Part shown: piece after piece, positions 1,208-32,709 of the stretch
Position numbering within the stretch: the first letter of the stretch is position 1
Layout of the letters: every line of letters starts with the position of its first letter
The notes under the pieces: model-generated
The model's input: only the letters and a program-made list of their open reading frames with translations
Told to the model about the DNA's origin: nothing
Database searches by the model: none
Translations under genes and position numbers: made by a program
Origin: Spirochaetaceae bacterium
Lineage (GTDB): Bacteria > Spirochaetota > Spirochaetia > DSM-27196 > SKKC01
DNA: 44,069 nt
Assembly: GCA_007694005.1 (NCBI GenBank)
Contig: RECN01000054.1
Span: 1 to 44,069, forward strand
Direction: 5' to 3'

Positions 1208-1307
1208 ACGGGGTAATCTTTTTCAGGATACATGAGAGAACGGCGGATAAGGCCTTACATGCTATTCTGTGCGTACCACAACTTCGGGTGAGGAGCTCAT
1301 CAACACT

Positions 1308-3826: not shown

Positions 3827-5004
3827 GGTGGGAAAGAGTCTCACTGGGTGATGTAGTAACCTTTCGCGGCGGTGGAACACCAAGAAAAGACGTCCCGGAG
3901 TACTGGGGGCCCGATGTTCCATGGGCGACAGTAAAGGACTTCAAGAGTCTGACCATTTCTACCACTGCGGATTCAATCTCCGAGATCGGGTTGGCCTCGA
4001 GCGCTGCCAACCTCATTCCGGCGGGTCATGTGATTATCCCCACCCGCATGGCCCTCGGAAAAGCAGCCATAAACGCGATTGATCTTGCTATCAACCAAGA
4101 TCTGAGGGCACTCATTCCGCGGGTAGAAGTGGATCCTGTTTACCTTCTTCACTCGATACTCGGCTTGGCTAAGATAATTGAGCGCCACGGTTCGGGAGCC
4201 ACGGTGAAGGGTATCACGCAAGACAAATTAGCTGCACTGCAAATCCCCCTCCCACCCCTCGAGGAGCAGAAGCGGATCGCGGCCATCCTGAACGCGGCGG
4301 ACGCCCTGCGGGCCAAGCGCCGGCAGACCCTCGCCGAGCTCGACACCCTGCTCCAATCCACCTTCCTCGACATGTTCGGCGATCCGGTGACCAATCCGAA
4401 GGGGTGGGAGGTAAAGGCTCTCAAGGATGGAGTTGAGTCTTTCGAAGGCGGGCGAAACTTGATGCCCATTGAACGGGAAAGACGAGATCGAATAAGAGTT
4501 TTGAAAGTGAGCGCAGTTACTAGTGGCGAATATCGTCCAGACGAGAGCAAACCATTTTCCCAAAATGAACCGATTCAAGAGAGCCACATGGTGAGAAATG
4601 GCGACTTGCTCATTAGCCGAGCTAACACCGCCGATCTTGTTGGTGCGGTTGTCTATGTATGGAATACAGAAGGGCGGGAGATGCTACCCGACAAGCTCTG
4701 GCGATTCGTGTTGTCGGACCCTCGGATCATCGAGCCCTTATTCCTTCTTCACGTTGCTCGCTCTGACTATTTCCGAAGGCAACTCATCCAACGCGCTACG
4801 GGCACGAGTGGTTCGATGAAGAATATCGGAAAGACAAAGATGCTGAGTATTCAGGTTCCTTTCCCCCCCCTCTCCCTCCAACGTCACTTCGCCACCATCG
4901 TCGAGTCTGTAGAACAACAAAAAGCCCGTTTACGCGCCCATCTAACCGAACTCGATACCCTCTTCGCCTCGCTGCAGTCCCGGGCCTTCAAGGGAGAACT
5001 GTGA
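3823..5004 (+). CDS. hsdS: Type I restriction-modification specificity subunit
   Basis: The DNA-recognition subunit that gives the HsdM/HsdR complex its target. Two target-recognition domains alternate with conserved helical spacers. TRD1 covers about residues 1-140 (WERVSLGDVVTFRGGGTPRK) and is followed by spacer 1 (IPLPPLEEQKRIAAILNAAD, then TLAELDTLLQSTFLDMFGDP). TRD2 covers about residues 195-340 (with NGDLLISRANTADLVGA) and is followed by spacer 2 (VPFPPLSLQRHFATIVESVE, then LTELDTLFASLQSRAFKGEL). At 393 residues it is complete. TRD2 (about 4430-4850) is visibly more AT-rich than the GC-rich spacer before it, as expected if TRDs are exchanged horizontally. It starts at GTG 3823 inside the previous stop and ends in the overlap with the next gene. 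Confidence 0.93.
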   Translation: MRWERVSLGDVVTFRGGGTPRKDVPEYWGPDVPWATVKDFKSLTISTTADSISEIGLASSAANLIPAGHVIIPTRMALGKAAINAIDLAINQDLRALIPRVEVDPVYLLHSILGLAKIIERHGSGATVKGITQDKLAALQIPLPPLEEQKRIAAILNAADALRAKRRQTLAELDTLLQSTFLDMFGDPVTNPKGWEVKALKDGVESFEGGRNLMPIERERRDRIRVLKVSAVTSGEYRPDESKPFSQNEPIQESHMVRNGDLLISRANTADLVGAVVYVWNTEGREMLPDKLWRFVLSDPRIIEPLFLLHVARSDYFRRQLIQRATGTSGSMKNIGKTKMLSIQVPFPPLSLQRHFATIVESVEQQKARLRAHLTELDTLFASLQSRAFKGEL

Positions 5005-6032
5005 GTATGGCGAAAGATCTGACGGTTTCGCAGGTTGATCGGCAGAATATCCTCAACAATCCGTATGCGCTGGACGAGATTCGCAAAGGCATAGGAGTGA
5101 GCGGCATCATCTTTAAAGGCCGACCAATTCTGCTCAAGGAGCAAGTGGCGGAGTTTTTTGAGGTCAGCGAGCGTACCATTGAGAACTACGTGAGCCGTTT
5201 TGAGTCGGAATTGGCTGAAAACGGTTACGCCGTACTGAAGGGTAAATATTTGCAGGAGCTGAAGTTAGTTATAGCTCAGCTTGATGTTCCCGAAACAGTT
5301 TTCGGTAACATCAAAAGGACGCCGCAGTTATCGATTTTCGACTACAGAGCCTTCCTCAATCTGGCAATGCTTATCACGGAAAGCGAAAAAGCCCGGGTAT
5401 TACGCCAGGTTATTCTTGATATCGCAATTGACACCATTAACCGGAAGACCGGTGGCGGAACGAAATATATCAATCAACGGGAGGAAGAGTTCCTCGCTTC
5501 CTGGTTTGAAGAAGAGAACTATCGCAAACAGTTCACCGATGCCTTAAAGAATCACGTGGATATGGGGAATGCGAAATACGCCATTTATACAAACCGCATC
5601 TATGTCAGCATCTTCAAGGAAGACGCGCAGGAGTACCGTCGGATTCTGAAACTCCACGAGAAAGATACGGTACGAGATACCTTCTATTCCGAGATACTGG
5701 ACCTCGTAGCGGCATATGAAGTCGGAATGGCCGAAATTATCACCAGGAAGGCCGAAAGTCTGGGGCGAAAGCTCACCGCTCATGAACTGGATTCTCTTTT
5801 TCTGGAGTTTGAGCAGAAGGCCCATTGGAAGCCTTTGGTACAGAAGGCTCGGATGAAAATGGCGAGCCGGGATATGGCTTTTAGAGATGCTCTCCATCTT
5901 CAGCTGCAAGAGTACATCGCCCCCATCAATCCGGATGAGTTTGAACGTTTTCTGGGAGAGAAGAGCAAAGAGCTTCATGAACGACTTGAAGAGGCGAAAG
6001 AGGTCATGAAGCGATTGAAAGAGAGGGATTGA
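5001..6032 (+). CDS. RhuM-like DNA-binding protein, probable partner of the Doc toxin
   Basis: A 343-residue soluble protein. The N-terminus (residues ~30-75, ILLKEQVAEFFEVSERTIEN) looks like a winged/helix-turn-helix DNA-binding unit, followed by a long helical region with ISIFDYRAFLNLAML-like and YAIYTNRIYVSIF segments and a Lys/Glu-rich C-terminal helix. This is the pattern of RhuM-family proteins found within type I restriction loci beside Fic/Doc toxins. The start is GTG 5001 or ATG 5007; AGGGAG at 4990-4995 fits the GTG spacing better. Its stop (TGA 6030-6032) shares a base with the doc ATG, so the two are coupled. By position I infer an antitoxin or repressor role; the sequence does not show this directly. 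Confidence 0.65.
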   Translation: MSMAKDLTVSQVDRQNILNNPYALDEIRKGIGVSGIIFKGRPILLKEQVAEFFEVSERTIENYVSRFESELAENGYAVLKGKYLQELKLVIAQLDVPETVFGNIKRTPQLSIFDYRAFLNLAMLITESEKARVLRQVILDIAIDTINRKTGGGTKYINQREEEFLASWFEEENYRKQFTDALKNHVDMGNAKYAIYTNRIYVSIFKEDAQEYRRILKLHEKDTVRDTFYSEILDLVAAYEVGMAEIITRKAESLGRKLTAHELDSLFLEFEQKAHWKPLVQKARMKMASRDMAFRDALHLQLQEYIAPINPDEFERFLGEKSKELHERLEEAKEVMKRLKERD

Positions 6033-6481
6033 TGAAGCACATCTATCTCTCTCTGGAACAGGCGAAAGAGATTCACGAAAAGACCATCGAAGTCTCAGGA
6101 GGCGGAACGCTTGGTGTTCTGGACGGAGGGCGGTTGGATAGCGTTTTACAGCACATTCAGAATGACGATTACTATCCTATCTTTCTGGATAAGATCACCC
6201 ATCTGTTCTTCGCCACAAACAAGTTCCACACGTTTCAGGACGGAAATAAGCGAATCGCCATAACGCTGTCGGCTCAGTTCCTGCTACTGAACGGTTACAT
6301 GTACTGCTCAAGTCGTTTTATTCGCGAAATGGAAAATATCTCCTATCATCTTGCCGCCGGAAGAATCGATCGGGATTTGCTGCGCCGAGTGATAGAGTCG
6401 GTGATCAACGAAACAATCGATACTGATGAGGAACTGAAGCTGGATATCTTCCATGCGATCAAGGACGACAGCCATGAGTAA
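6032..6481 (+). CDS. doc: Death-on-curing (Doc) family toxin, Fic fold
   Basis: A 149-residue Fic-fold protein with the Doc catalytic loop FHTFQDGNKRIAITLSAQF (HxFxDGNKR) near residues 67-85, preceded by GGRLDSVLQHIQND, which matches the family's substrate-flap region. In phage P1, Doc phosphorylates EF-Tu and stops translation; all motif residues needed for that chemistry are present here. The start is ATG 6032, overlapping the rhuM-like stop, with GAGAGG upstream. The stop overlaps hsdR by eight bases. Placing a toxin between hsdS and hsdR ties its dosage to the restriction operon; an abortive response when restriction fails or the locus is lost is my inference. Confidence 0.9.
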   Translation: MKHIYLSLEQAKEIHEKTIEVSGGGTLGVLDGGRLDSVLQHIQNDDYYPIFLDKITHLFFATNKFHTFQDGNKRIAITLSAQFLLLNGYMYCSSRFIREMENISYHLAAGRIDRDLLRRVIESVINETIDTDEELKLDIFHAIKDDSHE

Positions 6482-9400
6482 TTTTGCCTTCCTGCCGAAT
6501 GAGTTCAGTGACATTGCTGAGTCTGCTCAGAAGGCAGAAGGGCACGTTGTGGGTGACCCGAGAGCGTCCTGCTTCCATGCCCGCTTTACCCTTGAGGCTA
6601 TTGTCCACTGGCTCTACCGGCATGATACTTCGCTCCGCATGCCCTACGACGACAGACTGGGAGCGCTCATTCATGAACCGAGCTTTCAGAACCTCCTACC
6701 AGAGTCGGTATTTCAGAAGACCCGGGTCATTCAGAAGGTCGGAAACCAGGCTGTCCATACCACCCGTCCCATACGCGAGTACGACGCCAGGCAGGTGGTC
6801 AAAGAGCTACACCACATCTGCTATTGGCTCGTACGGACATACACGCCTGAAGCACCCCGGGATGGGGCTTCGTGGCAGGACACTCGGGTACCACAGCCTC
6901 TGACCCCCGGGGACGTTGTTCCGCGCAGGAAGCTTGAAACGCTTGAGGCGGATCTTGCTGAACGCAACCGTGCTGCGCTTAAAGAACAACAGCAGCGAGA
7001 TGAGCTTGATGCGGAGCTGCGCGAACTGCGGACGCAGCTGACACTCCTGCGCTCACAAGCAGAAGCTGCTCCTGACCCCCATGATTACACCGAGGCAGAA
7101 ACCCGCAAATACCTTATCGATGTGGAGCTGCGCCGTGCCGGCTGGCCTCTGGATCAGGACCGTGATCGTGAATACAAGGTCACCGGCATGCCGAACAACC
7201 AGGGTGTGGGCTATGTCGATTACGTCCTGTGGGGAGACGACGGGAAGCCTCTGGCGGTTGTTGAGGCAAAGAAGACGACAGGTGACCCGGCGGTCGGTAC
7301 GCAGCAGGCGAAGCTCTACGCTGACTGCCTGGAGCAGATGCACGGACAGCGTCCGCTCATCTTTACCACCAACGGATACCGTACCTGGTTCTGGGACGAC
7401 CTTTCCTATCCGTCGCGGAAGGTGGCCGGGTTCTACAAGAAAGATGAGCTGCAGCGGCTTATCGTGCGTCGAGCCCAGCAGAAAAAGCTCGACGTTTCAG
7501 AGGTGAGCGACACCATTGTTGAGCGCTACTATCAGAAGCGAGCGATCGGCAGCATCTTCTCCCAGTTCACGCAGGCCCGACGTAAAGCGCTTCTTGTCAT
7601 GGCGACTGGTACCGGTAAGACCCGGACCGCCATTGCGTTGGTCGATGTGCTGCAGCGCGCCGGGTGGATCAAGCGAGCACTCTTTCTTGCAGACCGGCTG
7701 TCGCTGGTCAACCAGACGGTCGGAGCCTTTAAGGCGCATCTTCCGCAAGCGAGTCCTGTGAACCTCGTCACCGACAAGAATGCACAGGGGCGGGTGTATG
7801 TGTGCACCTATCCGACCATGCTTAACCTCATTGATCAGACCGAAGGTGAAAGCGCCCGGTTTGGGGTTGGACATTTTGATCTGGTTATCATTGATGAAGC
7901 CCACCGATCGGTCTACCAGAAGTATGGGGCTATCTTTCGCTACTTTGACTCGCTGCTTGTGGGACTCACGGCCACCCCGCGAGAAGAGGTCGACCGGAAC
8001 ACCTACGATCTGTTTGAGCTTGAACCCGGTGTGCCGACCGACGCGTATGAACTTGAAACCGCCGTAGCCGACGGGTTTCTGGTCCCACCGCGGGTGGAGC
8101 AGGTAGAGCTGAAATATCCGCGTGAGGGAATAAAGTACGATGATCTAAGCGACGAGGAAAAAGAGCAATGGGAGAGCCTCGACTGGGGAGACGATGCATC
8201 GGCGCAGGGCGTTCCCTCGCAGGTAAACGCAACCGCGATCAATAACTGGCTCTTCAATACAGACACCGTAGATAAAGTGCTTCAGCATCTCATGAAGTAC
8301 GGCCACACAGTCGATGGGGGAGACCGCCTTGGAAAAACCATCATCTTCGCCCGCAATCATGATCATGCTGCCTTTATTGAGGAACGCTTCAATTATCACT
8401 ATCCCCATTTTCACGGGCACTTCGCTCGCGTCATAGATACCTATGCGAAGTATCCGCAGAGCCTGATTGATGATTTCTCGCTGAAGGATAAGGCCCCCCA
8501 CATCGCCATTTCGGTGGACATGCTTGATACCGGTGTTGATATACCCGAAGTGGTAAACCTTGTCTTCTTCAAACCTGTCTATTCGCGCATCAAGTTCTGG
8601 CAGATGATCGGCCGAGGAACACGTTTGTGCGAAAATCTTTTCGGCCCGGATCAGGACAAAGAAGACTTCCGTGTTTTTGACTTTTGCTTCAACTTCGACT
8701 TTTTCCGTGAGAACCCGAAAGGGATAGAAGCAGGTGGAGGGATTCCCCTCGGGGCTCGGCTATTCCAGGCCAAGGTAGAGTTGCTCGGGCACCTGCAGAA
8801 AGCACCGTCGCATGATCCGGATTCTGAGCTCCGCGATGCGCTTCGACAAGGTCTACACGAGCACGTAAAGGGCATGAACCGAAAGAACTTTCTGGTGCGT
8901 CTACAGCTTGAAACCGTGGAGCGTTTCCAGAACCCACAGGCCTGGGAGAACCTCAGTGCCGGCGACCGGGAGGTGCTCACCCGTGAAATCGCATCGCTTC
9001 CGACCGAGCAGCCGAAGGACGCAGTCGAGGCGCGATTGTTTGATCTGACTGCACTACGCATGCAGCTTGCGTTAGCAGAACAGGATGCGGAGCTCCTGGA
9101 GCGACAACGCAGGCGGGTGGTGGAAATAGCCATGATGCTCGAGGAAAAGTCGAGTGTGCCAGCGGTGAAGGCTCAGCTGAGCTATCTCGCCGCATTACAG
9201 GAACCTGGATTCTGGGAAGGCATAAGCATCGCGACGCTTGAGGATATGAGGCTACGCCTTCGAGGCCTCGTGCACCTGTTGGATAAGAGCAAACGCACCA
9301 TTGTCTACACTGACTTCAAGGATGAAGTTCTCAGTGTTCGTGAAGACGCGTCATTCCTCATGCCAAAGATGACCGGCGCTCAGTACGAGAAGAAAGTGAA

Positions 9401-9866
9401 AAACTATCTGCGAGACCACCTAGACCATCTGGTTATTCATCGGCTTCGCAGTAATCTTCCCCTCACCGAGACCGACCTTGTAGGTCTTGAGCAGACGCTC
9501 GCCGAAATCGGTGATGAAGACGGCGAAACACTCCTTGGAAACCTTCTTGAGCGAAGCGGCGCGCCATCGCTTGCATGGTTCGTGAAGAGTCTTGTCGGGA
9601 TGGACCGCGGAGCGGCTCAAGAAGCCTTTTCGAAATTTCTTAACGACCGTAGCCTCACGGCGTCTCAGATCCGTTTCGTCGAGATGGTTATCGAGCAGCT
9701 CACCTCACGGGGCGTTATGGAACCGGAGGCCTTATACGAGCCGCCGTTCTCGAGTTTACACAGCGGGGGCCCAGACGCCTTGTTTGCCGGCAAGGATGCG
9801 GTGGTTGAGGAGATCTTCCAGACACTACAGGGCATGCATGAAGATCTACGATCGCAGTCCGGATAA
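6474..9866 (+). CDS. hsdR: Type I restriction endonuclease subunit (ATP-dependent translocase)
   Basis: The motor and nuclease of the type I complex, 1130 residues from ATG 6474 (chosen because MSNFAFLPNEF starts a DUF4145-like N-terminal domain and lies just before the doc stop). Domains in order: DUF4145-like (1-140), coiled coil (about 150-205), an EcoKI/EcoEI-type PD-(D/E)XK nuclease with VDYVLWGDDG and VVEAKK (about 245-270), SF2 helicase with Walker A MATGTGKTRTA near 376, DEAH box (VIIDEAHRSVY) near 473, GLTATPREEVD, helicase motif VI region QMIGRGTRL, and a C-terminal EcoEI-like domain. All core motifs are intact, so the enzyme looks active. It is the last gene of the operon. Confidence 0.95.
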   Translation: MSNFAFLPNEFSDIAESAQKAEGHVVGDPRASCFHARFTLEAIVHWLYRHDTSLRMPYDDRLGALIHEPSFQNLLPESVFQKTRVIQKVGNQAVHTTRPIREYDARQVVKELHHICYWLVRTYTPEAPRDGASWQDTRVPQPLTPGDVVPRRKLETLEADLAERNRAALKEQQQRDELDAELRELRTQLTLLRSQAEAAPDPHDYTEAETRKYLIDVELRRAGWPLDQDRDREYKVTGMPNNQGVGYVDYVLWGDDGKPLAVVEAKKTTGDPAVGTQQAKLYADCLEQMHGQRPLIFTTNGYRTWFWDDLSYPSRKVAGFYKKDELQRLIVRRAQQKKLDVSEVSDTIVERYYQKRAIGSIFSQFTQARRKALLVMATGTGKTRTAIALVDVLQRAGWIKRALFLADRLSLVNQTVGAFKAHLPQASPVNLVTDKNAQGRVYVCTYPTMLNLIDQTEGESARFGVGHFDLVIIDEAHRSVYQKYGAIFRYFDSLLVGLTATPREEVDRNTYDLFELEPGVPTDAYELETAVADGFLVPPRVEQVELKYPREGIKYDDLSDEEKEQWESLDWGDDASAQGVPSQVNATAINNWLFNTDTVDKVLQHLMKYGHTVDGGDRLGKTIIFARNHDHAAFIEERFNYHYPHFHGHFARVIDTYAKYPQSLIDDFSLKDKAPHIAISVDMLDTGVDIPEVVNLVFFKPVYSRIKFWQMIGRGTRLCENLFGPDQDKEDFRVFDFCFNFDFFRENPKGIEAGGGIPLGARLFQAKVELLGHLQKAPSHDPDSELRDALRQGLHEHVKGMNRKNFLVRLQLETVERFQNPQAWENLSAGDREVLTREIASLPTEQPKDAVEARLFDLTALRMQLALAEQDAELLERQRRRVVEIAMMLEEKSSVPAVKAQLSYLAALQEPGFWEGISIATLEDMRLRLRGLVHLLDKSKRTIVYTDFKDEVLSVREDASFLMPKMTGAQYEKKVKNYLRDHLDHLVIHRLRSNLPLTETDLVGLEQTLAEIGDEDGETLLGNLLERSGAPSLAWFVKSLVGMDRGAAQEAFSKFLNDRSLTASQIRFVEMVIEQLTSRGVMEPEALYEPPFSSLHSGGPDALFAGKDAVVEEIFQTLQGMHEDLRSQSG

Positions 9867-13989: not shown

Positions 13990-14943
13990 ATGGATACCAC
14001 GCGTTTCTCGCCCGATCAATGGGCACTTATACTCGGCGGTTCAAGCGGATTCGGTCTCGCTACCGCGAAGAAGCTCGCCGCAGCCGGTCTTTCGGTCTGC
14101 GCCGTTCACCGTGACCGCAAGGGGGCCATGGCCCGCATCGAGCCCGAGTTTCAGTCGATACGGGACAGTCTGCAGCAGGATGCCGAGTTTATCGCACTCA
14201 ACCTCGACGCCCTGAGCCCTGAAGGCATTACCTCGACGCTTGAGGCGCTCAAACCTGCGGCGCATGGCCGTGTGCGGGTGCTCATGCACTCAATCGCGTT
14301 CGGGAATCTTAAACCCATCGCGCCGGTGCGGACCGAGTCGGCCACACAGCACGCGTCTCTTCTCGACCGGCTCGCGTCGGATCTCGGTGCCGACCGGGAC
14401 ACCCTGCAGGACAGGCTTGAGGCGCTCCTTCAGGAGGGCTACGACGCGGTGTCTGCGCTTGTGCCGCCGAAGTACGGCGAGAACCTTATTGACGACGAAG
14501 ACATGGCCCGCACGATCTACAGCATGGGAACGAGCCTGCTGACCTGGGTGCAGCGGCTGCACGCTGAGGGTATGTTCGCCTCCGACGCGAGGGTCTTCGG
14601 AATGACGAGCGAAGGCAACGATATCGCCTGGCGCGGTTACGCGGCGGTCTCAGCGGCGAAGACCGCACTCGAGTCTGTGTCGCGATCTATTGCCGTCGAG
14701 TACGCGCCCTACGGCATACGCTCCAACATCATACAGGCCGGGGTTACCGATACACCGGCGCTGAACGCGATTCCCGGGAGTGCGGCCATGAAGGCCACCG
14801 CGCGCATGCGCAATCCCTTCAAACGCCTGACCGTTCCCGAGGATGTGGCAAACGTGATCATGCTCCTGAGCCAGGACGAAGGGGCCTGGGTCAACGGAAG
14901 TCTCATCCGGGTGGATGGGGGTGAGCACATTGCCTCAGCATAG
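13990..14943 (+). CDS. FabI/FabL-like enoyl-ACP reductase (SDR superfamily)
   Basis: An NAD(P)-binding Rossmann protein of 317 residues opening the acyl-chain cluster. The dinucleotide loop is GGSSGFGLATAKKLA (residue ~16), followed by LMHSIAFGN, a FabI-like hallmark, and the catalytic pair spaced as Tyr-x6-Lys in GYAAVSAAKTALE (about residues 217-224). That spacing separates enoyl-ACP reductases from ordinary SDRs (Tyr-x3-Lys). It ends with WVNGSLIRVDGG, the usual C-terminus. Between SIAF and the Tyr there are roughly 100 residues, clearly longer than in FabI, including a helical stretch near residues 118-165. It probably reduces enoyl-ACP, but ketoreductase activity is not excluded. No Shine-Dalgarno site precedes ATG 13990. 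Confidence 0.75.
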   Translation: MDTTRFSPDQWALILGGSSGFGLATAKKLAAAGLSVCAVHRDRKGAMARIEPEFQSIRDSLQQDAEFIALNLDALSPEGITSTLEALKPAAHGRVRVLMHSIAFGNLKPIAPVRTESATQHASLLDRLASDLGADRDTLQDRLEALLQEGYDAVSALVPPKYGENLIDDEDMARTIYSMGTSLLTWVQRLHAEGMFASDARVFGMTSEGNDIAWRGYAAVSAAKTALESVSRSIAVEYAPYGIRSNIIQAGVTDTPALNAIPGSAAMKATARMRNPFKRLTVPEDVANVIMLLSQDEGAWVNGSLIRVDGGEHIASA

Positions 14944-15961
14944 TCTGTATATCCACGGGGTCGGTCATTTTCACCCCGACACGGTCATAGACAACCGCTT
15001 TCTCGAAGATCTTGATATCGGCACGAGCGACAGCTGGATAATAGAACGGGTCGGCATTCACACGCGTCGGTCGGTGCTTCCGGCAGATTATATACGCGAC
15101 ACGCGCAACGCCGATCCCCGGGCCGCAGACGAAGCTTCCGAGTACACGAACGCCGAATGTGGTGCCCACGCGGCGCGGCTTGCGCTGAAACGGGCCGGTA
15201 TCACCGCAGAACAGATCGGCATGATAGTCGCGGGGGGCTGCTCACCACAGCACAGCATTCCTGCCGAAGCCTGCATAATCGGGGACGAGCTCGGCATTAC
15301 CGCTCCCTGCTTCGATCTGACCTCGGCCTGCTCGAGTTTTGCGACTGATCTGCACGTTCTTATGAACATGTACCCCGAGGCGCTTCCGGAGTACATACTT
15401 GTCGTAAACGTCGAGAACACGACGCGGACGGTGAACTACAACGACCGGAACACGGCGGTTCTCTGGGGAGACGGCGCTGCTGCCGCGGTCGTGTCGAAGA
15501 AGCACCAGGGGCCGATTGTCGCACGGCAGGGTTTTATGCATTCCGACCCGAGCGGCTGGGACAAGGTTGTCATCCCTGCCGGGGGGCACTTCAGGCAGAA
15601 CGGACCGGCAGTGCAGGGTTTTGCGATCAGGAAGACCGGCGAATGCCTCAAGGAGCTCGGCGAAAGCCTTGGGACGGAGGATTACTGGTTCATAGGACAT
15701 CAGGCGAATCTGCTGATGCTCCAGTCGGTCGCCTCGCGGGCGGGGGTGGCTCCGGAGCGGCACCTGTACAACGTCGACCGCTACGGGAACTGCGGAGCCG
15801 CCGGTGCTCCCGGTGTACTGTCGCAGAACTGGGAACGCTTCAGGAGCGGGGAGCGCATCGCAATCGCCGTCGTCGGGTCGGGTCTGACCTGGTCGGCCCT
15901 CGCGCTGGAAGTACGCGCTGATCTTCCGCCCGATGAAGGGACACACGGACACAACACATGA
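14915..15961 (+). CDS. Beta-ketoacyl-ACP synthase III-like (FabH family)
   Basis: A thiolase-fold condensing enzyme that would prime chain synthesis by joining an acyl-CoA starter to malonyl-ACP. The FabH triad is complete: Cys in LTSACSSFATDL (about residue 138), His in FIGHQANLLML (about 262) and Asn in YGNCGAAGAPGVL (about 292). At 348 residues it is about 30 longer than typical FabH. Start is uncertain: ATG 14915, GTG 14921 or TTG 14930 are in frame, all within the end of the reductase gene; the GGGGGTGAG tract at 14916-14924 would best serve TTG 14930. The stop overlaps the next ATG (ATGA). The starter-unit preference cannot be read from sequence. Confidence 0.87.
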   Translation: MGVSTLPQHSLYIHGVGHFHPDTVIDNRFLEDLDIGTSDSWIIERVGIHTRRSVLPADYIRDTRNADPRAADEASEYTNAECGAHAARLALKRAGITAEQIGMIVAGGCSPQHSIPAEACIIGDELGITAPCFDLTSACSSFATDLHVLMNMYPEALPEYILVVNVENTTRTVNYNDRNTAVLWGDGAAAAVVSKKHQGPIVARQGFMHSDPSGWDKVVIPAGGHFRQNGPAVQGFAIRKTGECLKELGESLGTEDYWFIGHQANLLMLQSVASRAGVAPERHLYNVDRYGNCGAAGAPGVLSQNWERFRSGERIAIAVVGSGLTWSALALEVRADLPPDEGTHGHNT

Positions 15962-16542
15962 AATACGCCGAATATCTGCAGAAAACCTCGCTGAACAAGG
16001 AAGAGATCATGGCTCTCGCGTGGGGGACGCTGGTCGAAGATCCTCCGCCGGGCGGACTTGCGAGCCTTCCGGCGCCGCCCATGCTCATGCTCGACCGGGT
16101 CACCGAAATCGAGCACACGGGAAACCGGGGACGCATAGTCGCCGAACAGGACGTGCACCTCGACGCGTGGTTCTTTCAGTGCCACTTTCGAAACGACCCG
16201 GTTCAACCGGGCTGTCTTGGCGTCGACGCGGTCTGGCAGCTCATAGGGCTGTACGCCGGGCTTAGAGGCGCCGAGGGCTACGGACGCGCCCTCGGGATCA
16301 AGGAAATCGAGTTTCAGGGGCAGATTCGCCCTCATAACAGCGTTGTGCGCTACGAGGTATCCATACGGCGCTACGCCGAACTTCCCGCTTCAGGCAGCGC
16401 AGTGGCGCTCGGAAACGCGGAGGTCAGTGTCGACGGCGAGCTCATCTATCTCATGAAAGACGCCAAAGTCGGCATATTCAAGGGTATTCAGTACGCCGAC
16501 TACCCGCACCACAGTCCCCAGTCCAAGGGAGGGAAGATGTAG
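15958..16542 (+). CDS. FabA-type 3-hydroxyacyl-ACP dehydratase/isomerase
   Basis: A hot-dog-fold dehydratase of 194 residues. It carries the FabA hallmark WFFQCHFRNDPVQPGCLGVD, AVWQLIGLYAGLRG, with catalytic His near residue 75 and Asp near 89 (FabZ has Glu at that position). FabA enzymes dehydrate 3-hydroxyacyl-ACP and can also isomerise trans-2 to cis-3-enoyl-ACP, the branch point of anaerobic unsaturated fatty acid synthesis. GRALGIKEIEFQGQIRP agrees with the family. It starts at ATG 15958 overlapping the KAS III stop. Having a FabA and a FabZ side by side in one operon is notable. Confidence 0.88.
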   Translation: MKYAEYLQKTSLNKEEIMALAWGTLVEDPPPGGLASLPAPPMLMLDRVTEIEHTGNRGRIVAEQDVHLDAWFFQCHFRNDPVQPGCLGVDAVWQLIGLYAGLRGAEGYGRALGIKEIEFQGQIRPHNSVVRYEVSIRRYAELPASGSAVALGNAEVSVDGELIYLMKDAKVGIFKGIQYADYPHHSPQSKGGKM

Positions 16543-16543
16543 C

Positions 16544-17011
16544 ATGGGTGTTCAATTAAGTCCGTCCGAACTTCTTGCGCTGCTTCCGCAGCAGAAACCG
16601 TTTCGTTACGTCGATGAAATTCTCGAGGTCAACGAGAAGATGATCCGCGGACGCTATACCTTCCGCGAAGACGAATATTTCTATCAGGGACACTTTCCCG
16701 GGAATCCCATAACGCCGGGAGTGATACTGCTCGAAAGCATGTGTCAGGTCGGTGTTGTCTGCCTTGGAATCTATCTGGTCGGTCTCGAGCTGCCGCCTGA
16801 GGAGCACAAAAACTGGCTGACGCTGTTTTCCGATGCCGAAGTCGAGTTCAGCCGCAGTGTCCTCCCCGGAGAAACCGTCGAGATTGTCGGGGAGCTCCAG
16901 TTCTGGCGCCGACGCAAGCTGAAAGCGAAAGTCACCATGACAAACGAGAAGGGTGAGGTTGTGGCAAGCACGACCGCATCCGGAATAGGAGTCAGGAATG
17001 ACGCAGAATAG
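16544..17011 (+). CDS. FabZ-type 3-hydroxyacyl-ACP dehydratase
   Basis: A 155-residue hot-dog-fold dehydratase. FYQGHFPGNPITPGVILLES contains the catalytic His (about residue 50) and Glu (about 63) typical of FabZ, and LLPQQKPFRYVDEILEV at the N-terminus matches the family start. It would dehydrate 3-hydroxyacyl-ACP without isomerisation. It begins at ATG 16544, one base after the FabA-like stop, with AAGGGAGGG upstream, and overlaps the following KAS gene by 14 bases. The stretch VEFSRSVLPGETVEIVGELQ is FabZ-like but without the usual KVKFRRPV wording, so it is a diverged paralogue, not the housekeeping copy. Confidence 0.87.
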   Translation: MGVQLSPSELLALLPQQKPFRYVDEILEVNEKMIRGRYTFREDEYFYQGHFPGNPITPGVILLESMCQVGVVCLGIYLVGLELPPEEHKNWLTLFSDAEVEFSRSVLPGETVEIVGELQFWRRRKLKAKVTMTNEKGEVVASTTASGIGVRNDAE

Positions 17012-18290
17012 AACTGCTTCCGAACGTGTTGTGATAACCGGAATGGGCATCGTCGCACCGAACGCCATCGGACTCGACGCCTACGAGTCGGCGCTTCGAG
17101 ACGGGGTCTCCGGTATCCGCTTTATTCCGAGATTGCAGGAGCTGAACTTCGGCTGTCAGGTCGCCGGGGTGCCGCAGGGAGTTGAATCGCTGCAGCACGA
17201 GTACTTTTCCGAGGATCTCCTGCGCGCCATGAACAGTTCGATGGTCTACGCGGGGATCGCGGCTATAGACTGCTGGCGGGATGCCGATCTGCCTGATTTT
17301 GATGGTGATGAAGACCACGTAGACTGGGACACCGGGGCCATCATAGGCACGGGAATCGGCGGGGCCGATACGCTCGGCGAACAGCTTGTTCCCAAGGTCG
17401 ACGCGGGAAAGACGAAGCGGCTTGGCAGCACGATGGTCGAACAGACCATGGCGAGTGCGGTGAGTGCGCGGGTCGGAGGCATCCTCGGGCTCGGCGGACA
17501 GGTTACGACCAATTCCTCGGCGTGTACCACCGGTACCGAGGCGCTGATCATGGCATACGAGCGCATTCGCTCCGGTCGGGTCAAACGCATGCTCGCCGGG
17601 GGAGCCGAAGGCAGCAGTCACTACATCTGGGCCGGGTTCGACGGTATGCGTGTGCTCGGCAGAAACTTCAACGATACGCCCGAGAAGGCATCGCGTCCGA
17701 TGAGCGCAACGACGAGCGGCTTTATCCCGGGTTCGGGGTCGGGAATACTCATGCTCGAGTCGCTTGAAAGCGCTCTTGACCGGGGTGCCCATATCTACGC
17801 GGAAATACTCGGCGGCGACATAAACAGCGGCGGACAGCGCGGTTCCGGGAGCATGACCGCTCCGAATCCGGTCGGCGTGCGGCGCTGCATCCGCGGCGCG
17901 GTCGAGGCGAGCGGTATAGAGCCGGGCGAAATCGACGTGGTAAACGGTCACCTGACCGGAACCATGGCCGATCCGCTCGAGGTGGAGAACTGGCGTGCCG
18001 CACTCGATACGAAGCCGACCGGAATTCCCCTTATCAACGGGACAAAATCGCTCATAGGCCACGCGCTCGGTGCGGCGGGCGGTCTCGAATGTGTTGCCGC
18101 GGTCCTGCAGCTCGACCGGGGCTTCATACACGGTTCGGTGAACTGTGAGGATCTGCACCCGAAACTCGAAGCCTTTGAGAGCCGCATTGTACGGGAAACC
18201 CGCGAAAGCGATGCCCGCGTGCTCGCCAAAGCAAGTTTCGGTTTTGGCGACGTAAACGCGTGCGTAATCTTTCGCGCTCATGTAGAATAG
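16998..18290 (+). CDS. Beta-ketoacyl-ACP synthase I/II-like elongation enzyme
   Basis: A FabB/FabF-family condensing enzyme of 430 residues. The nucleophilic Cys sits in SSACTTGTEALIMA (about residue 175), the first His in VVNGHLTGTMADPLE (about 317; the usual THGT is changed to NGHLTGT) and the second His in LIGHALGAAGGLECVAAVLQ (about 354), giving the Cys-His-His triad needed for decarboxylative condensation. Because Cys is retained it is not a chain-length factor. The unusual wording around the first His suggests a specialised subfamily. It starts at ATG 16998 within the fabZ-like gene, preceded by AGGA. With the KAS III it supplies priming and elongation for the same carrier protein. Confidence 0.87.
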   Translation: MTQNRTASERVVITGMGIVAPNAIGLDAYESALRDGVSGIRFIPRLQELNFGCQVAGVPQGVESLQHEYFSEDLLRAMNSSMVYAGIAAIDCWRDADLPDFDGDEDHVDWDTGAIIGTGIGGADTLGEQLVPKVDAGKTKRLGSTMVEQTMASAVSARVGGILGLGGQVTTNSSACTTGTEALIMAYERIRSGRVKRMLAGGAEGSSHYIWAGFDGMRVLGRNFNDTPEKASRPMSATTSGFIPGSGSGILMLESLESALDRGAHIYAEILGGDINSGGQRGSGSMTAPNPVGVRRCIRGAVEASGIEPGEIDVVNGHLTGTMADPLEVENWRAALDTKPTGIPLINGTKSLIGHALGAAGGLECVAAVLQLDRGFIHGSVNCEDLHPKLEAFESRIVRETRESDARVLAKASFGFGDVNACVIFRAHVE

Positions 18291-18323
18291 AGGAAACTGT
18301 AAAAACAACCATACGGAGGAACT

Positions 18324-18572
18324 ATGGACAGGACAGAAGTATACAACAAAGTGGTCGAGATTATCGGACCATTCGCCAAGGACCCGGAAGCGCTTTCAAA
18401 GGCAGACGAGAAGACGAACATTCTCACGGACCTGAAAGTGAACTCAGCCCGACTTGTCGACATCATTCTCGATTTCGAGGACAAGTTCGACATTGAAATC
18501 GACGACGATGCGGCCGACCAGATCATGACGCTCGGTGACGCGGTAGACAAAATCGTCGAAATAAAGGGATAG
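18324..18572 (+). CDS. Dedicated acyl carrier protein
   Basis: An acidic, helical 82-residue carrier protein. The phosphopantetheine attachment Ser is in LKVNSARLVDIILDFEDKFD (about residue 40); the common D-S-L is replaced by N-S-A, while the downstream helix (DFEDKFDIEIDDD) is typical. This change separates it from the housekeeping AcpP at 32470, which has G-A-D-S-L. A strong GGAGGA site lies four bases before ATG 18324, the best in the cluster, consistent with a carrier protein being needed in excess. It lies 33 bases after the KAS gene and 17 before the acyltransferase. Confidence 0.9.
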   Translation: MDRTEVYNKVVEIIGPFAKDPEALSKADEKTNILTDLKVNSARLVDIILDFEDKFDIEIDDDAADQIMTLGDAVDKIVEIKG

Positions 18573-18589
18573 GAACCGGGCAGATCGGC

Positions 18590-19417
18590 ATGGATGATAC
18601 CAGCGAGACAGCGCACCTGACGAAACGATCTCAACGCAAAGCGGTGCGTGCACTGCTGAGTCCGAAAGACCGCGTTGGATTGCGCATTCAGGCGCTGCTT
18701 GCGCGTATCTTCCTGCCGGTCCTCTATCCTATCTATCTCGTTCTCCTGCGTTTTGGCCTCGGGTATCGCGTTCGAGGCCATAGGCAGACGCTTGCACGTA
18801 TTCGTTCCGAGCTGAGGCATCGCAGGGACCCGCTGCTTATCTGTCCGAATCACCTGACAATGATCGACTCGATTATTCTCCTGTGGATTCTGACACCGTG
18901 GTGGAGAACGTTCTGGGATCTGCGCCTGTTTGCGTGGAATACACCCGAGAAACGAAACTTCGCCCACGTTCCTGTTCTGCGTTTTTTCGCGTATATAGGC
19001 CGGTGCATCGAAATAATCCGGCAGGCGCCACGGGAAGAAACGCAGAAGCTGCTCGCCAGGCTCAAGGCGCTTCTTGTGCACGGGCAGAGCGTAATGATTT
19101 TTCCGGAAGGGAAACGAAGCCGATCGGGGCGCGTTGACACCGAGGGTTTTGCCTACGGAGTCGGGAAGATTATCGATGATCTCCGTCTCATTGGCGCCTC
19201 GCCCCGCGTGCTGTGCATATACCTTCGCGGTCGGCGACAGACCGGTCACAGTGTAATGCCGAAGCGGGGAGAATCGTTTTACCTCGACTATGCGCTGATT
19301 GAGCCGCAGACCGAATACCGGGGAATGCGCGCTCATCGCGATATTTCGACCACGATCGTACAGAAACTCGCCGAACTCGAAGGAACATACTTTGCGTCTT
19401 CCGACATTTCTCGGTAA
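18590..19417 (+). CDS. PlsC-type acyltransferase
   Basis: A 275-residue acyltransferase of the glycerolphosphate-acyltransferase superfamily, probably membrane-associated through the hydrophobic stretch LLARIFLPVLYPIYLVLLRF (about residues 34-53). The HX4D catalytic motif appears as CPNHLTMIDSIIL (about residue 88), and the substrate-binding FPEG motif as MIFPEGKRSRSG (about 170). These enzymes move acyl groups from ACP or CoA to a hydroxyl, such as lysophosphatidic acid. As the only transferase in the cluster it probably off-loads the chain made on the dedicated carrier; the acceptor is unknown. Its end overlaps the phosphopantetheinyl transferase gene by 26 bases. Confidence 0.85.
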   Translation: MDDTSETAHLTKRSQRKAVRALLSPKDRVGLRIQALLARIFLPVLYPIYLVLLRFGLGYRVRGHRQTLARIRSELRHRRDPLLICPNHLTMIDSIILLWILTPWWRTFWDLRLFAWNTPEKRNFAHVPVLRFFAYIGRCIEIIRQAPREETQKLLARLKALLVHGQSVMIFPEGKRSRSGRVDTEGFAYGVGKIIDDLRLIGASPRVLCIYLRGRRQTGHSVMPKRGESFYLDYALIEPQTEYRGMRAHRDISTTIVQKLAELEGTYFASSDISR

Positions 19418-20252
19418 CGATATCGTACACTGGAGCGGGCCGGATGCCCGGGAGAAGCGCCCGGAGTCGGCGCACTCGAAGCGCTTTCTCGACCGCATCC
19501 TCGATTCCGGCGAACACACGCAGCACGATCGCCTCATGTCCCTGTGTGACGGCCTCGACCTGACCGCAGCTCACAATCGCGACGAGGCAGCCCTGTGGAG
19601 CAGGGCGCTCTGGGCGCTCTGGGCGGCCAAGGAAGCGACCTATAAGGCAGCAGTCAAGGCTGTGCCGGGTTTAGGCTTTTCGCCGCGTTCCATCGTCGTA
19701 ACGGTCGACCCGGAACCGTACGAAACGGGTGCGTCCGGCCTCGTACACAGCTACGCGGACCTGCAGGTCGGGGAGGCCCGGCCGCTCGCTCGCGGACGCG
19801 CCGTTATCGGCCGGCAATGGTACGACATCGTCTGGGAGGCCTGCGGCGAGTTTGTGCACACCGTCAGTGTCGGGCCCTTTAATCTGAGTGGGAACCTTCC
19901 CTTCGACGCGAAGGAAATTGCGAGCCTGTGGGACGGAATTGTACACGCTTCGGCGCTGCACGATACGATACTCTGCGGGATCGCAGGCGCTTCGCAGAGC
20001 ATTCGAAATGCGACCGAACGCGCCTCATCTGCCGTTCGCCGACTCGCCTGCAATCTCGCGAGAACGGTGCCAGGTCTGCACCTCGCGGCGCTCGAAGTCC
20101 GCCGCGCCACCGGTACGGGGACGCGCAACGGAGCTCCCGTGCTGTTCGACCAGGGCCACCGGAAAGCCCTGTATGACATTGATCTGAGCCTGAGCCATGA
20201 TGGCCCCTGGTCGGCGGCTGCCGTCCTGAATCGGAGTCCGGTCCGCCCTTGA
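19392..20252 (+). CDS. Enlarged AcpS-like 4'-phosphopantetheinyl transferase
   Basis: Probably loads the phosphopantetheine arm onto the cluster's carrier protein. The order of motifs is that of AcpS: FLGNDIVHWSGPDA at residue ~6 (Asp ligand), LWALWAAKEATYKAAVK near 71-85 (Lys-Glu), then near the C-terminus GAPVLFD and DIDLSLSHDGPWSAAAVL. AcpS has ~125 residues; this has 286, the excess being about 130 residues between the KEA region and the GAP motif, without recognisable features. I start at TTG 19392 because AAGGA lies eight bases upstream and the first conserved motif follows at once; an in-frame TTG at 19299 has no such support. It overlaps the acyltransferase gene. Confidence 0.75.
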   Translation: MRLPTFLGNDIVHWSGPDAREKRPESAHSKRFLDRILDSGEHTQHDRLMSLCDGLDLTAAHNRDEAALWSRALWALWAAKEATYKAAVKAVPGLGFSPRSIVVTVDPEPYETGASGLVHSYADLQVGEARPLARGRAVIGRQWYDIVWEACGEFVHTVSVGPFNLSGNLPFDAKEIASLWDGIVHASALHDTILCGIAGASQSIRNATERASSAVRRLACNLARTVPGLHLAALEVRRATGTGTRNGAPVLFDQGHRKALYDIDLSLSHDGPWSAAAVLNRSPVRP

Positions 20253-20306
20253 TTGACCAGCCGGTATCCCCTTGTTACAGTCTCTGCCTCAGAGCCTGGA
20301 GTCAAC

Positions 20307-23105
20307 GTGTTCCTGAAAAGTATAGAATTATTCGGATTTAAGAGTTTCGCAGACCGAAGCCGCCTCGAGTTTGCAGACGGCGTGAGCGCCCTGCTTGGGC
20401 CCAACGGCTGCGGAAAGAGCAATATAGTAGACGCCATAAAGTGGGTTCTCGGCGAGCAGGCGACCAAAAGTCTCCGCGCCGAACGCATGGAAGACGTGAT
20501 TTTTAACGGGACCGAGGACCGCAAAGCGTTAAACGTGGCGGAAGTAACCCTGACGCTTTCAAATGATGAGGGCGTTCTTCCCGTCGATATGCCGGAAATC
20601 AGCGTCAGACGCCGGCTCTTCCGCAGTGGCGACAGCGAGTACTACATCAACAATACCCCGGTTAAACTCAGGGAGCTGCGGGAGCTCTTTTACGATACAG
20701 GCATAGGAAAGAGCGCGTACTCCATTATGGAGCAGGGGAAGATCGACCAGGTGCTCTCGAACAAGCCCGAAGAGCGACGCCATATCTTCGAGGAAGCGGC
20801 GACAATAACCAAGTACCGCTTCAAGGGCCAGGAGGCCGAGCGCAAGCTTCAGCGCACCGAAGAAAACATGAAGCAGGTCGAAAGCATCCTCGGTGAAGTC
20901 CACCGCAGCTACAACGCGCTCGAAAAACAGGCTGCGAAGACGGAGAAGTTCCGACAGCTGCGTGACCGTATCTTCGAACTCGAAGTCGACCGTGAACTTC
21001 TGCGTCTCTCGAAGCTGCTCGACGACCGTGACTCCCGCGAGCAGCGCCTCAAGGATACCGTCGGTCGGCGCGACGAGGTCAAAACGAAGATAGATTCCGC
21101 AAACGAGCGGGTGGAAAAGAACCTCGACCTCGTCAATACCATGGAAGCCCAACTCGTAGAGAAGCAGAAGAAGCTCTACGGCCTTGAAATCGAGAAGGGG
21201 AACCTTCTTGAGCAGCTCGGGATGCTCGCGGAGCGTCGCGATGATCTTCAGGAGTCAATCAAGGCGGATGAGGCGAGGCAGAAGACGCTCAGTGACCGCA
21301 TTGCGACCGCTGAGGCGGATATCAGCTCGAATCAGAAGGAAATCGATACGCTGACGGTTCGCGCCGAGGACATAGGCGGAAACATCACGCAGTTCCGCGA
21401 GCGCATCGACGCGGCAGAGCAGCGCATCAAGGCAAACGATGAGGCGATAGCCACGCATCTTACGCGTATCGACGCGCTCGACACGGAGACCGACACCCTG
21501 CAGGACGAGCTGAGGGATCTGACCGACCGCATCGTTCGCGAACTCGATACCCGTCTGAAAGAGTCGGGCTATCGCAGTCAGGACCGCAGTTCGCTCGACG
21601 AAGAGCTTAACACCGCGCTCGCAGAGTTCAGACGCTCACTTTCGACGCAGGCCGACCGCGCCTCGGATGTTCTCGCCGGCGGGACTGATTCGGCAGCACG
21701 TCTGCGAACGATCCTTCAGGAGGTTGCCTCCGGCCTGTCGACGACGCGCGAAGGTTTTGAGGGGCTTGTCGGGGTTATCGACCGCTTCCGGGCGACCATA
21801 CCATCGTTTCTCGATGAGTTCCTCGCACCCGAAGGGACGCTGACGCGCAAGCGATCCATCGACGACCGCATGGCCGAAATCCGTCTCGATATTCGCAGCC
21901 GTCGGGCCGAGATCGAAGGCCTGCAGGCTCAGAACCGGGAGCTGTCGGGGAAAATCAGCGAGTACCGGCATACCTTAGAAGAGCTCCGGGTAAACCGGGT
22001 ACAGGTACAGACACAGATTACCTCGCATCAGGAAAGCAAGGCACGCATCGAGCGGGAACTTTCCGAGGCGAGACACGCGCTTGAAGAGAACCGAAACGGG
22101 ATTGCGCGGAAGCAGGAACGTCTTTCCGAACTCGCCTCGCGGCTGACCGAGCTCCAGGATAACCGCAAAAAAATCGAGACTCAGGAGACGTCCCTGAGCG
22201 CCGAACTCGAGAAACTCGAAGCCGAAATCTCGAAGAAGAACAGCGATCTCATACAGCGGGAACACTCGGTCAAGGGTATGATGAGTGAACTCGCGCGCCT
22301 GCAGGCCCAGGTCGAGAAGGTGCAGATTCAGCACGCCGAGAGCGTGACCGAAATCCGGAGTATCTACGACAACTTCCGTGACCGCCACAGCCGCGAGTTA
22401 TCCGAGTTCGAGTCCCGTGCCTTTGAAATCAAGCGTGATGCGCGTGACGTCCGGGATGAACTTGCCTCAGTGCGGGAGGAGCAGCGTGCCCTCGGGACGG
22501 TGAACCTCATGGCTCCGGAAGAGTTCGCGGAGGTAAAGACACGCTACGAGTTCTTGAGCGGCCAGCTCGATGACCTCAAGAAAGCCCGGGAAGACCTGTT
22601 GCGCGTCACCGAAGAGATCCGCAACGAGAGCGCGGAACTCTTTATGAACACCTTCGAGAAGATCAAGCGGAACTTCCATTCCATGTTCCGCAGGCTCTTC
22701 GGCGGTGGCCGGGCGGAACTCAGACTCAGCGATCCGGAAGACGTGCTTGCCTCGGGTATAGACATTCTCGCGCAGCCGCCCGGGAAGAAACTCGAAAACA
22801 TCGCGCTGCTTTCCGGTGGCGAACGGAGTCTTACCGCCGTCGCGCTTCTTTTTGCGACGTATATGGTCAAGCCTTCGCCCTTCTGTCTGCTCGACGAAAT
22901 CGATGCAGCGCTCGACGAGAACAATGTCGGGCGCTTTGTAAGCATGCTGACCGAGTTTGGCCGCCAGAGCCAGTTCATCATCATCACCCATAACAAGAAG
23001 ACCGTTGCCAGCGCATCTACCCTGCTTGGAGTGACTATGGAGGAAAGCGGGGTGAGCAAGGCGGTCGCGATACGGCTTGACCGAAATGCCCCGAATACTG
23101 AATAG
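20307..23105 (+). CDS. smc: Chromosome partition protein SMC, short form with unusual middle
   Basis: The ATPase of bacterial condensin. Head motifs are complete: Walker A LLGPNGCGKSNIVDAIKWVL (about residue 30), signature LLSGGERSLTAVALLFA (about 834), Walker B SPFCLLDEIDAALDENN (about 860) and a D-loop. Long coiled coils (about 165-420 and 540-760) connect them. The protein has 932 residues versus ~1180 in typical SMC, and the centre (about 405-535) shows no glycine-rich SMC hinge; instead there is a helical segment around SGYRSQDRSSLDEELNTALA. Shorter SMC proteins are known in spirochaetes (Borrelia P115). GTG 20307 is chosen because GGAG lies six bases upstream and SMC begins VFLKSIELFGFKSFAD. 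It follows the lipid cluster with no terminator visible. Confidence 0.92.
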   Translation: MFLKSIELFGFKSFADRSRLEFADGVSALLGPNGCGKSNIVDAIKWVLGEQATKSLRAERMEDVIFNGTEDRKALNVAEVTLTLSNDEGVLPVDMPEISVRRRLFRSGDSEYYINNTPVKLRELRELFYDTGIGKSAYSIMEQGKIDQVLSNKPEERRHIFEEAATITKYRFKGQEAERKLQRTEENMKQVESILGEVHRSYNALEKQAAKTEKFRQLRDRIFELEVDRELLRLSKLLDDRDSREQRLKDTVGRRDEVKTKIDSANERVEKNLDLVNTMEAQLVEKQKKLYGLEIEKGNLLEQLGMLAERRDDLQESIKADEARQKTLSDRIATAEADISSNQKEIDTLTVRAEDIGGNITQFRERIDAAEQRIKANDEAIATHLTRIDALDTETDTLQDELRDLTDRIVRELDTRLKESGYRSQDRSSLDEELNTALAEFRRSLSTQADRASDVLAGGTDSAARLRTILQEVASGLSTTREGFEGLVGVIDRFRATIPSFLDEFLAPEGTLTRKRSIDDRMAEIRLDIRSRRAEIEGLQAQNRELSGKISEYRHTLEELRVNRVQVQTQITSHQESKARIERELSEARHALEENRNGIARKQERLSELASRLTELQDNRKKIETQETSLSAELEKLEAEISKKNSDLIQREHSVKGMMSELARLQAQVEKVQIQHAESVTEIRSIYDNFRDRHSRELSEFESRAFEIKRDARDVRDELASVREEQRALGTVNLMAPEEFAEVKTRYEFLSGQLDDLKKAREDLLRVTEEIRNESAELFMNTFEKIKRNFHSMFRRLFGGGRAELRLSDPEDVLASGIDILAQPPGKKLENIALLSGGERSLTAVALLFATYMVKPSPFCLLDEIDAALDENNVGRFVSMLTEFGRQSQFIIITHNKKTVASASTLLGVTMEESGVSKAVAIRLDRNAPNTE

Positions 23106-32469: not shown

Positions 32470-32709
32470 ATGGATGAACAACTTTTTGAGAAGATGAAAA
32501 AACTGATCGCGGACAAGCTTGAAATTGACGAGAGCAAGATTAGCGTGGATTCGTCGTTTCGACAGGATCTCGGCGCTGACAGTCTCGACACCTACGAGCT
32601 TGTGTACGCAATTGAGGAAGAGCTTGGCATTACGATCCCGGACGAAAAAGCAAATGAGTTCGAGACCGTAAAGGATGCGCTCGATTACATCCAGAGCCAG
32701 TCGAAGTAG
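32470..32709 (+). CDS. acpP: Housekeeping acyl carrier protein
   Basis: A 79-residue carrier protein with canonical attachment site FRQDLGADSLDTYELVYAIE (Ser near residue 38) and the acidic recognition helix EEELGITIPDEKANEFETVK. It carries growing chains in fatty acid synthesis and is distinct from the second carrier at 18324 (N-S-A site). A GAGGAGGG site precedes ATG 32470. Followed by rnc after 12 bases. Confidence 0.96.
   Translation: MDEQLFEKMKKLIADKLEIDESKISVDSSFRQDLGADSLDTYELVYAIEEELGITIPDEKANEFETVKDALDYIQSQSK

Follow-up and report, generated by a model that had tools for sequence, protein, structure and literature searches.

A putative additional type II fatty acid synthase with a distinct elongating synthase and its own carrier in a Spirochaetaceae bacterium

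A stretch of 44,069 bases from a Spirochaetaceae bacterium (contig RECN01000054.1, hereafter the window) carries, at positions 13990-20252, an eight-gene operon for an extra acyl-chain line with its own acyl carrier protein (ACP) and phosphopantetheinyl transferase (PPTase), as supported by the presence of a separate set of type II fatty acid synthase (FAS-II) genes in the same genome. Judging from gene content and distribution, the operon is probably a semi-autonomous FAS-II devoted to the oxygen-independent production of cis-unsaturated, and probably also saturated, chains for membrane glycerolipids. We regard as evenly balanced the broader proposal that its elongating β-ketoacyl-ACP synthase (KAS) represents a third class, with a relocated gating carboxylate and a matched NS(A/S)xLVD carrier and PPTase, in an orthogonal FAS-II. 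This system would take over from FabB in FabA-dependent unsaturated fatty-acid synthesis beyond the classical FabA/FabB lineages, and several lineages of spirochaetes would have no other fatty acid synthase.

Gene content of the operon

The eight open reading frames (ORFs) all lie on the + strand and are tightly packed, with junctions between successive ORFs of -29, -4, +1, -14, +33, +17 and -26 bases, and they thus look like a single operon. Promoter and terminator scans were not informative when compared with shuffled sequences. Gene assignments were obtained by Pfam and NCBIfam profile searches, and ORFs, junctions, profiles and catalytic residues all confirm the eight close-packed functions that had been named in an earlier, sequence-only reading of the window:

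13990..14943, + strand: enoyl-ACP-reductase-like short-chain dehydrogenase/reductase (SDR), 317 aa; PF13561 at 131 bits, NCBIfam FabL at 102 bits, under its cut-off
14915..15961, + strand: KAS III (FabH-like), 348 aa; PF08545/PF08541, PRK09352 at 204 bits; Cys-His-Asn triad conserved
15958..16542, + strand: FabA-class dehydratase/isomerase, 194 aa; NF003509 at 205 bits against a 124-bit cut-off; QCHFRNDPVQPGCLGVD motif
16544..17011, + strand: FabZ-class dehydratase, 155 aa; PF07977 at 61 bits, FabZ at 74 bits; GHFPGNP and catalytic Glu
16998..18290, + strand: elongating KAS, 430 aa; NGHLTGT, FGFGDVN and a four-residue insertion in loop 2; Cys-His-His in place
18324..18572, + strand: private ACP, 82 aa; PF00550 at 23.5 bits; site VNSARLVD, not ADSLDxxE, with the attachment Ser kept
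18590..19417, + strand: PlsC-type acyltransferase, 275 aa; PF01553 at 51 bits; HLTMID (HxxxxD) and FPEG motifs
19392..20252, + strand: 4'-phosphopantetheinyl transferase (ACPS-type), probably 286 aa; PF01648 at 30 bits; GND, KEA and SHDG motifs

The two dehydratases retain their catalytic residues, His and Asp in FabA, whose top match in the Protein Data Bank (PDB) is E. coli FabA, and His and Glu in FabZ. The genome has no FabA-class protein besides that of the operon, which is present in a single copy. The SDR contains the nucleotide site GGSSGFG and a Y-x6-K, which is the pattern of FabI and FabL, and both the glycine motif and Y-x6-K are invariant among relatives. Its AlphaFold2 model (predicted local distance difference test, pLDDT, 87) gave the top template modelling (TM) score (target), 0.88, with B. 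subtilis FabL (3oid), with FabI also near, a comparison to be read in the light of the fact that enoyl and keto reductases are not cleanly told apart among SDR folds; a sequence search of solved structures with the SDR returned no relative at E < 1e-18. The AlphaFold2 model of the transferase (pLDDT 83) had PPTases as leading PDB fold matches, with modest TM-scores. Both enzymes had been described as enlarged. The reductase is indeed larger, in a way that is common to many relatives, owing to one optional insertion of ~40 residues after SIAFGNLKPI, while the transferase is less enlarged than had been thought, since it probably starts at the TTG at 19392, preceded by the Shine-Dalgarno sequence GAAGGA, rather than at 19299.

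A separate housekeeping set

The genome (3.9 Mb, 96% complete) was searched for FAS-II genes outside the operon, and a separate set was found that includes FabH (contig C165), FabG and FabF (C166), a further KAS (C200), FabZ (C191), FabI (C42) and AcpS (C158). In addition, the window itself contains a carrier gene whose existence the sequence-only reading had already pointed out:

32470..32709, + strand: housekeeping acpP, outside the operon and between an rpmF-like gene and rnc; GADSLD with a normal DSL site, aligned with E. coli AcpP

The presence of separate FabH, FabG, two further KAS, FabZ, FabI, acpP and AcpS indicates that the operon is an additional line with its own carrier and activating enzyme, as had been proposed. 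A FabK-type reductase was also considered elsewhere in the genome and discarded, as only one fragmentary match of 22 bits was obtained and FabI on C42 was found instead. At that place on C42 (locus L120), the housekeeping FabI adjoins two MaoC-like hydratase ORFs. Contig C35 (locus L129) of the same genome bears a type III polyketide synthase (PKS)-like gene followed by a methyltransferase-like gene.

The elongating KAS and its matched carrier

The operon KAS scores far under the equivalog cut-offs of both FabF (280 bits against 494) and FabB (245 bits against 630), and further departs from FabF (KAS II) in having GFGD in place of GFGG and Gly265 in place of Asp265. A tree was built in which the comparison set consisted of E. 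coli and proteobacterial FabB and FabF, along with the genome's two other KAS; in it, the operon KAS fall together as a single group, separated at 100/100 from every other KAS included. Other KAS types were sampled to a limited extent, and "third class" is meant relative to those sampled. At FabF positions 265/402, all 51 operon KAS have Gly/Asp and all 19 others have Asp/Gly, the swap being found in 0/19. All 51 also have extra residues in loop 2. The first His motif has lost one residue and reads GHLT(A/G)T, or GHFTGT at locus L148. In FabF, positions 265 and 402 coordinate two gating loops, with Asp265 coordinating the GFGG loop (PMC7138838). Since the swap sits at these positions, the gating carboxylate appears to have left loop 2, where Gly takes the place of Asp265, and to have moved to loop 1, where Asp takes that of Gly402.

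A similar constancy is present in the carrier. Indeed, the operon ACP has the attachment site N-S-(A/S)-x-L-V-D in 47 of 47 cases, as opposed to the D-S-L-D-x-x-E of housekeeping ACP. The altered carrier site and KAS motif, which had been taken to point to a specialised product, are thus real and invariant in relatives; at the level of sequence they are the defining features of a co-inherited pair, that is, signatures of the clade and not a sign of an exotic product. The rearranged KAS gate and the matched carrier may prevent mixing between the operon line and housekeeping fatty acid synthesis. In a FabA tree, the operon FabAs are placed on a long branch away from three proteobacterial FabAs (100/100), the deeper order being unresolved. 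At two spirochaete loci (L147 and L148, of genomes G095 and G017, respectively), the operon KAS occurs as a tandem pair of divergent copies. These genomes have neither another KAS nor FabA, and the pair may reflect a split of labour or a heterodimer.

Association with FabA and distribution

Among 393 Spirochaetota genomes, the operon KAS is found in 21 and FabA (NF003509) in 17, with 17/17 of the latter within those 21. The probability of this association by chance is ~1e-26 if each genome is taken as independent and ~1e-16 by genus (13 within 16 of 168). Linkage does not explain the tie, as FabA lies on another contig than the operon KAS in three genomes (G075, G133 and G202). Furthermore, the operon KAS is the only KAS of the genome in G062, G085, G090, G110, G133 and G141, and the only two KAS of G017 and G095 are the tandem pair in the operon. 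In six of these eight genomes, which are distant from the organism of the window and 91-100% complete, the only FabZ is also inside the operon (G062, G085, G090, G141, G017 and G095). Supplying the only KAS in eight genomes, the operon would be able to make bulk membrane acyl chains. Thus, the perfect tracking of the operon KAS by FabA in the phylum, together with the sole-KAS genomes, makes ordinary (unsaturated) membrane acyl chains the simpler product, and the unusual lipid that the sequence-only reading had put first loses that place.

A reference-genome scan retrieved a narrow family of operon KAS (45-74% identity) in Spirochaetota, Burkholderiales, Lysobacterales, Gemmatimonadota, Bdellovibrionota, Syntrophaceae/Smithellaceae and Bacteroidota. 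The suggested search of the gene set across phyla bore fruit, in that the gene order of the window is kept in most loci of the spirochaetes and of the four groups named after them, with the PPTase at the opposite end of the operon in L013. Within its own order, the operon KAS is present in this genome and in G130 only, among seven sampled. G130, the closest complete relative (one contig of 3,285,855 bases, probably Spirochaeta africana), shares the full set of eight genes. Other spirochaetes have a fuller version, FabD-ENR-(KAS III)-FabA-FabG-FabZ-KAS-ACP-PlsC-PPTase, where ENR stands for enoyl reductase, and FabG is within the operon in L011, L131 and L132. FabD and FabG are therefore ordinary parts of the system whose absence here results from secondary losses, and both activities are presumably borrowed by the lineage of the window, in line with what had been supposed for the missing ketoreductase and malonyl transferase. 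A search for plasmid carriage of the operon KAS returned, among the best ten places listed, only ordinary KAS at <36% identity.

Two variants differ in content. In Syntrophaceae, the operon includes FabD, FabG, a carboxylase-like protein and an acyl-CoA dehydrogenase, and FabA is mostly absent. In particular, the Syntrophaceae/Smithella loci L020-L031 (e.g. L023:4072-15182) contain FabD, a HMGL/PYC_OADA carboxylase-like protein, an acyl-CoA dehydrogenase that may replace the enoyl reductase, and KAS III, and further hold FabG, FabZ, KAS, ACP, PlsC, PPTase, an FMN reductase-like protein and an extra SDR. In flavobacterial loci (L034:5538-12068 and L039:4997-12078), ENR, FabZ, KAS, ACP and PPTase are joined to a type III PKS, a methyltransferase and an FAD monooxygenase, an arrangement resembling a fatty acid synthase dedicated to starter units for an alkyl-aromatic or quinone product.

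Proposed pathway and lipid evidence

In the pathway that can be proposed, the linked PPTase would load the private ACP and KAS III would begin the chains. The FabZ- and FabA-type dehydratases would then act on 3-hydroxyacyl-ACP, with FabA isomerising the trans-2 intermediate to cis-3, and the SDR would serve as enoyl reductase, while malonyl transfer and ketoreduction would be provided by housekeeping FabD and FabG. The operon KAS is predicted to elongate the cis intermediate, for which it is a natural candidate in the role that FabB has in E. coli, where the cis product of FabA is elongated by FabB (PMC2700279). Finally, PlsC would move the chain onto a lysophospholipid or glycerol phosphate, and its presence fits delivery to membrane glycerolipids. 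No Pfam fatty-acid desaturase was found in the genome of the window or in G130, which favours such a route.

Lipid composition offers a possible comparison between relatives with and without the operon. The fatty acids 16:1c9 and 18:1c11 are the positional isomers expected from the FabA pathway. According to a published comparison, both are present in S. africana, 16:1c9 in the form of dimethyl acetal, and Salinispira pacifica has no 18:1c11 (PMC4511686). The genome of the latter (G203) has neither the operon KAS nor FabA, so that the contrast between the two species matches a FabA pathway, though it is suggestive only.

Several observations weigh against this assignment. Salinispira also differs from the genome of the window and G130 in carrying a desaturase, which bears on the lipid contrast. 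Spirochaeta asiatica and S. dissipatitropha likewise contain 18:1c11 (PMC4511686), and FabA is absent, G130 excepted, from relatives of the same order, so that another route to this fatty acid or its uptake from the medium must exist. The genomes behind the FabA-KAS association are related and not independent, and block horizontal transfer of the operon adds to it. Moreover, G017, G095, G125 and G193 have the operon KAS and no FabA, which, together with the mostly FabA-less Syntrophaceae and flavobacterial variants, places FabA outside the core of the system. Lastly, active-site residues do not reveal isomerase activity (PMC2700279).

Alternative roles

It is unlikely that the operon is instead specialised for an unusual lipid, whether its chain is branched, hydroxylated, very long or borne on a sugar lipid, with the matched KAS and ACP keeping it separate from membrane fatty-acid synthesis. 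Dedicated lines typically have a private ACP, a PPTase and an acyltransferase, the flavobacterial module with its type III PKS, methyltransferase and FAD monooxygenase indicates that the system can feed special products, and the carriers of the operon in its own order also have a full housekeeping set; however, eight near-complete genomes of spirochaetes have no KAS other than that of the operon, co-occurrence with FabA suggests simple unsaturation, and no tailoring gene, exporter or glycosyltransferase was found in the operon of the window or in those of close relatives. A redundant second FAS-II acquired by horizontal transfer, which would make mainly saturated chains or act as a stress backup with FabA as a dehydratase only, is agreeable to the patchy distribution across phyla, with only this genome and G130 among the seven sampled in the order, and to its service as the sole fatty acid synthase elsewhere, FabA-less genomes included. 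Nonetheless, it leaves unexplained both the constant company of FabA and the operon KAS across the phylum, even when unlinked, and the side-by-side retention of FabA and FabZ, and we consider it quite doubtful.

It is very improbable that the operon is no more than this organism's housekeeping fatty acid synthase. Such a role holds in relatives such as G062, G085, G090 and G141, but here FabH, FabG, FabF, a further KAS, FabZ, FabI, AcpS and acpP are all encoded outside the operon. Whether these genes were the only FabA/FabF/FabI set of the genome had been raised as the point on which the idea of a second line would fall, and the genome searches rule this out, provided that the genes outside the operon are functional. 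An additional line producing unsaturated chains for the membrane is thus the reading that we prefer.

Neighbouring genes

The 3' neighbour of the operon (20253-23105) encodes an SMC-type ATPase that probably starts at the GTG at 20307 and not at the TTG at 20253. Upstream, inspection of the translations by eye points to a type I restriction-modification-like locus (1269-9866) with HsdM-, HsdS- and large HsdR-like ORFs, interleaved with DUF1016/YhcG-like, RhuM-like and Fic/death-on-curing-like ORFs.

Relation to known systems and implications

This kind of operon is already known. In 2017, CBU_0034-CBU_0038 of Coxiella burnetii (ACP, FabB, FabZ, FabA and FabH) was described as a horizontally acquired operon and proposed to serve the production of unsaturated fatty acids; the same arrangement was reported in Spirochaeta africana, disruption of two genes lowered growth, and transfer from a spirochaete or a deltaproteobacterium was proposed as its origin (PMC5423948). 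The relative order of ACP, KAS, FabZ, FabA and FabH is matched by the window and G130. The likeness is one of gene order and description, and the accessible part of that report names the KAS FabB and describes no matched KAS/ACP signatures, reductase, PlsC or PPTase (PMC5423948). What is new is that the KAS falls in a class of its own, in which the gating residues are exchanged and the carrier is matched, together with the strict association with FabA and the role of the operon as sole fatty acid synthase; none of these points was found described in the open literature.

As of 2009, FabA and FabB were recorded only from alpha- and gamma-proteobacteria (PMC2700279). As in their pathway, a FabA above the curated cut-off is paired here with an elongating KAS, but the latter is not FabB, as it belongs to a separate clade, has Gly265, Asp402 and a GHLT(A/G)T motif with one deletion, and is accompanied by a dedicated ACP and PPTase. 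FabN/FabO of Enterococcus faecalis are similarly a dehydratase-isomerase with a partner KAS in a duplicated FAS-II outside Proteobacteria (PMC2700279). However, FabN resembles FabZ and FabO is homologous to FabF, whereas the dehydratase of the window is of the true FabA class. Aryl polyene clusters also group type II KAS, ACP, dehydratase and reductase; the mismatch already seen from the sequence holds, as the eight genes include no adenylation enzyme, glycosyltransferase or exporter and do include FabA and an enoyl reductase.

FabA has so far been treated as inseparable from FabB. If the proposed role is true, a FabA line with a non-FabB KAS and its own carrier would provide a natural test of the features that qualify a KAS as partner of FabA, as well as an orthogonal FAS-II for lipid engineering, while the reciprocal Asp/Gly exchange directly tests the published gating model (PMC7138838). 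Such a line would also explain membrane unsaturation in some anaerobic spirochaetes.

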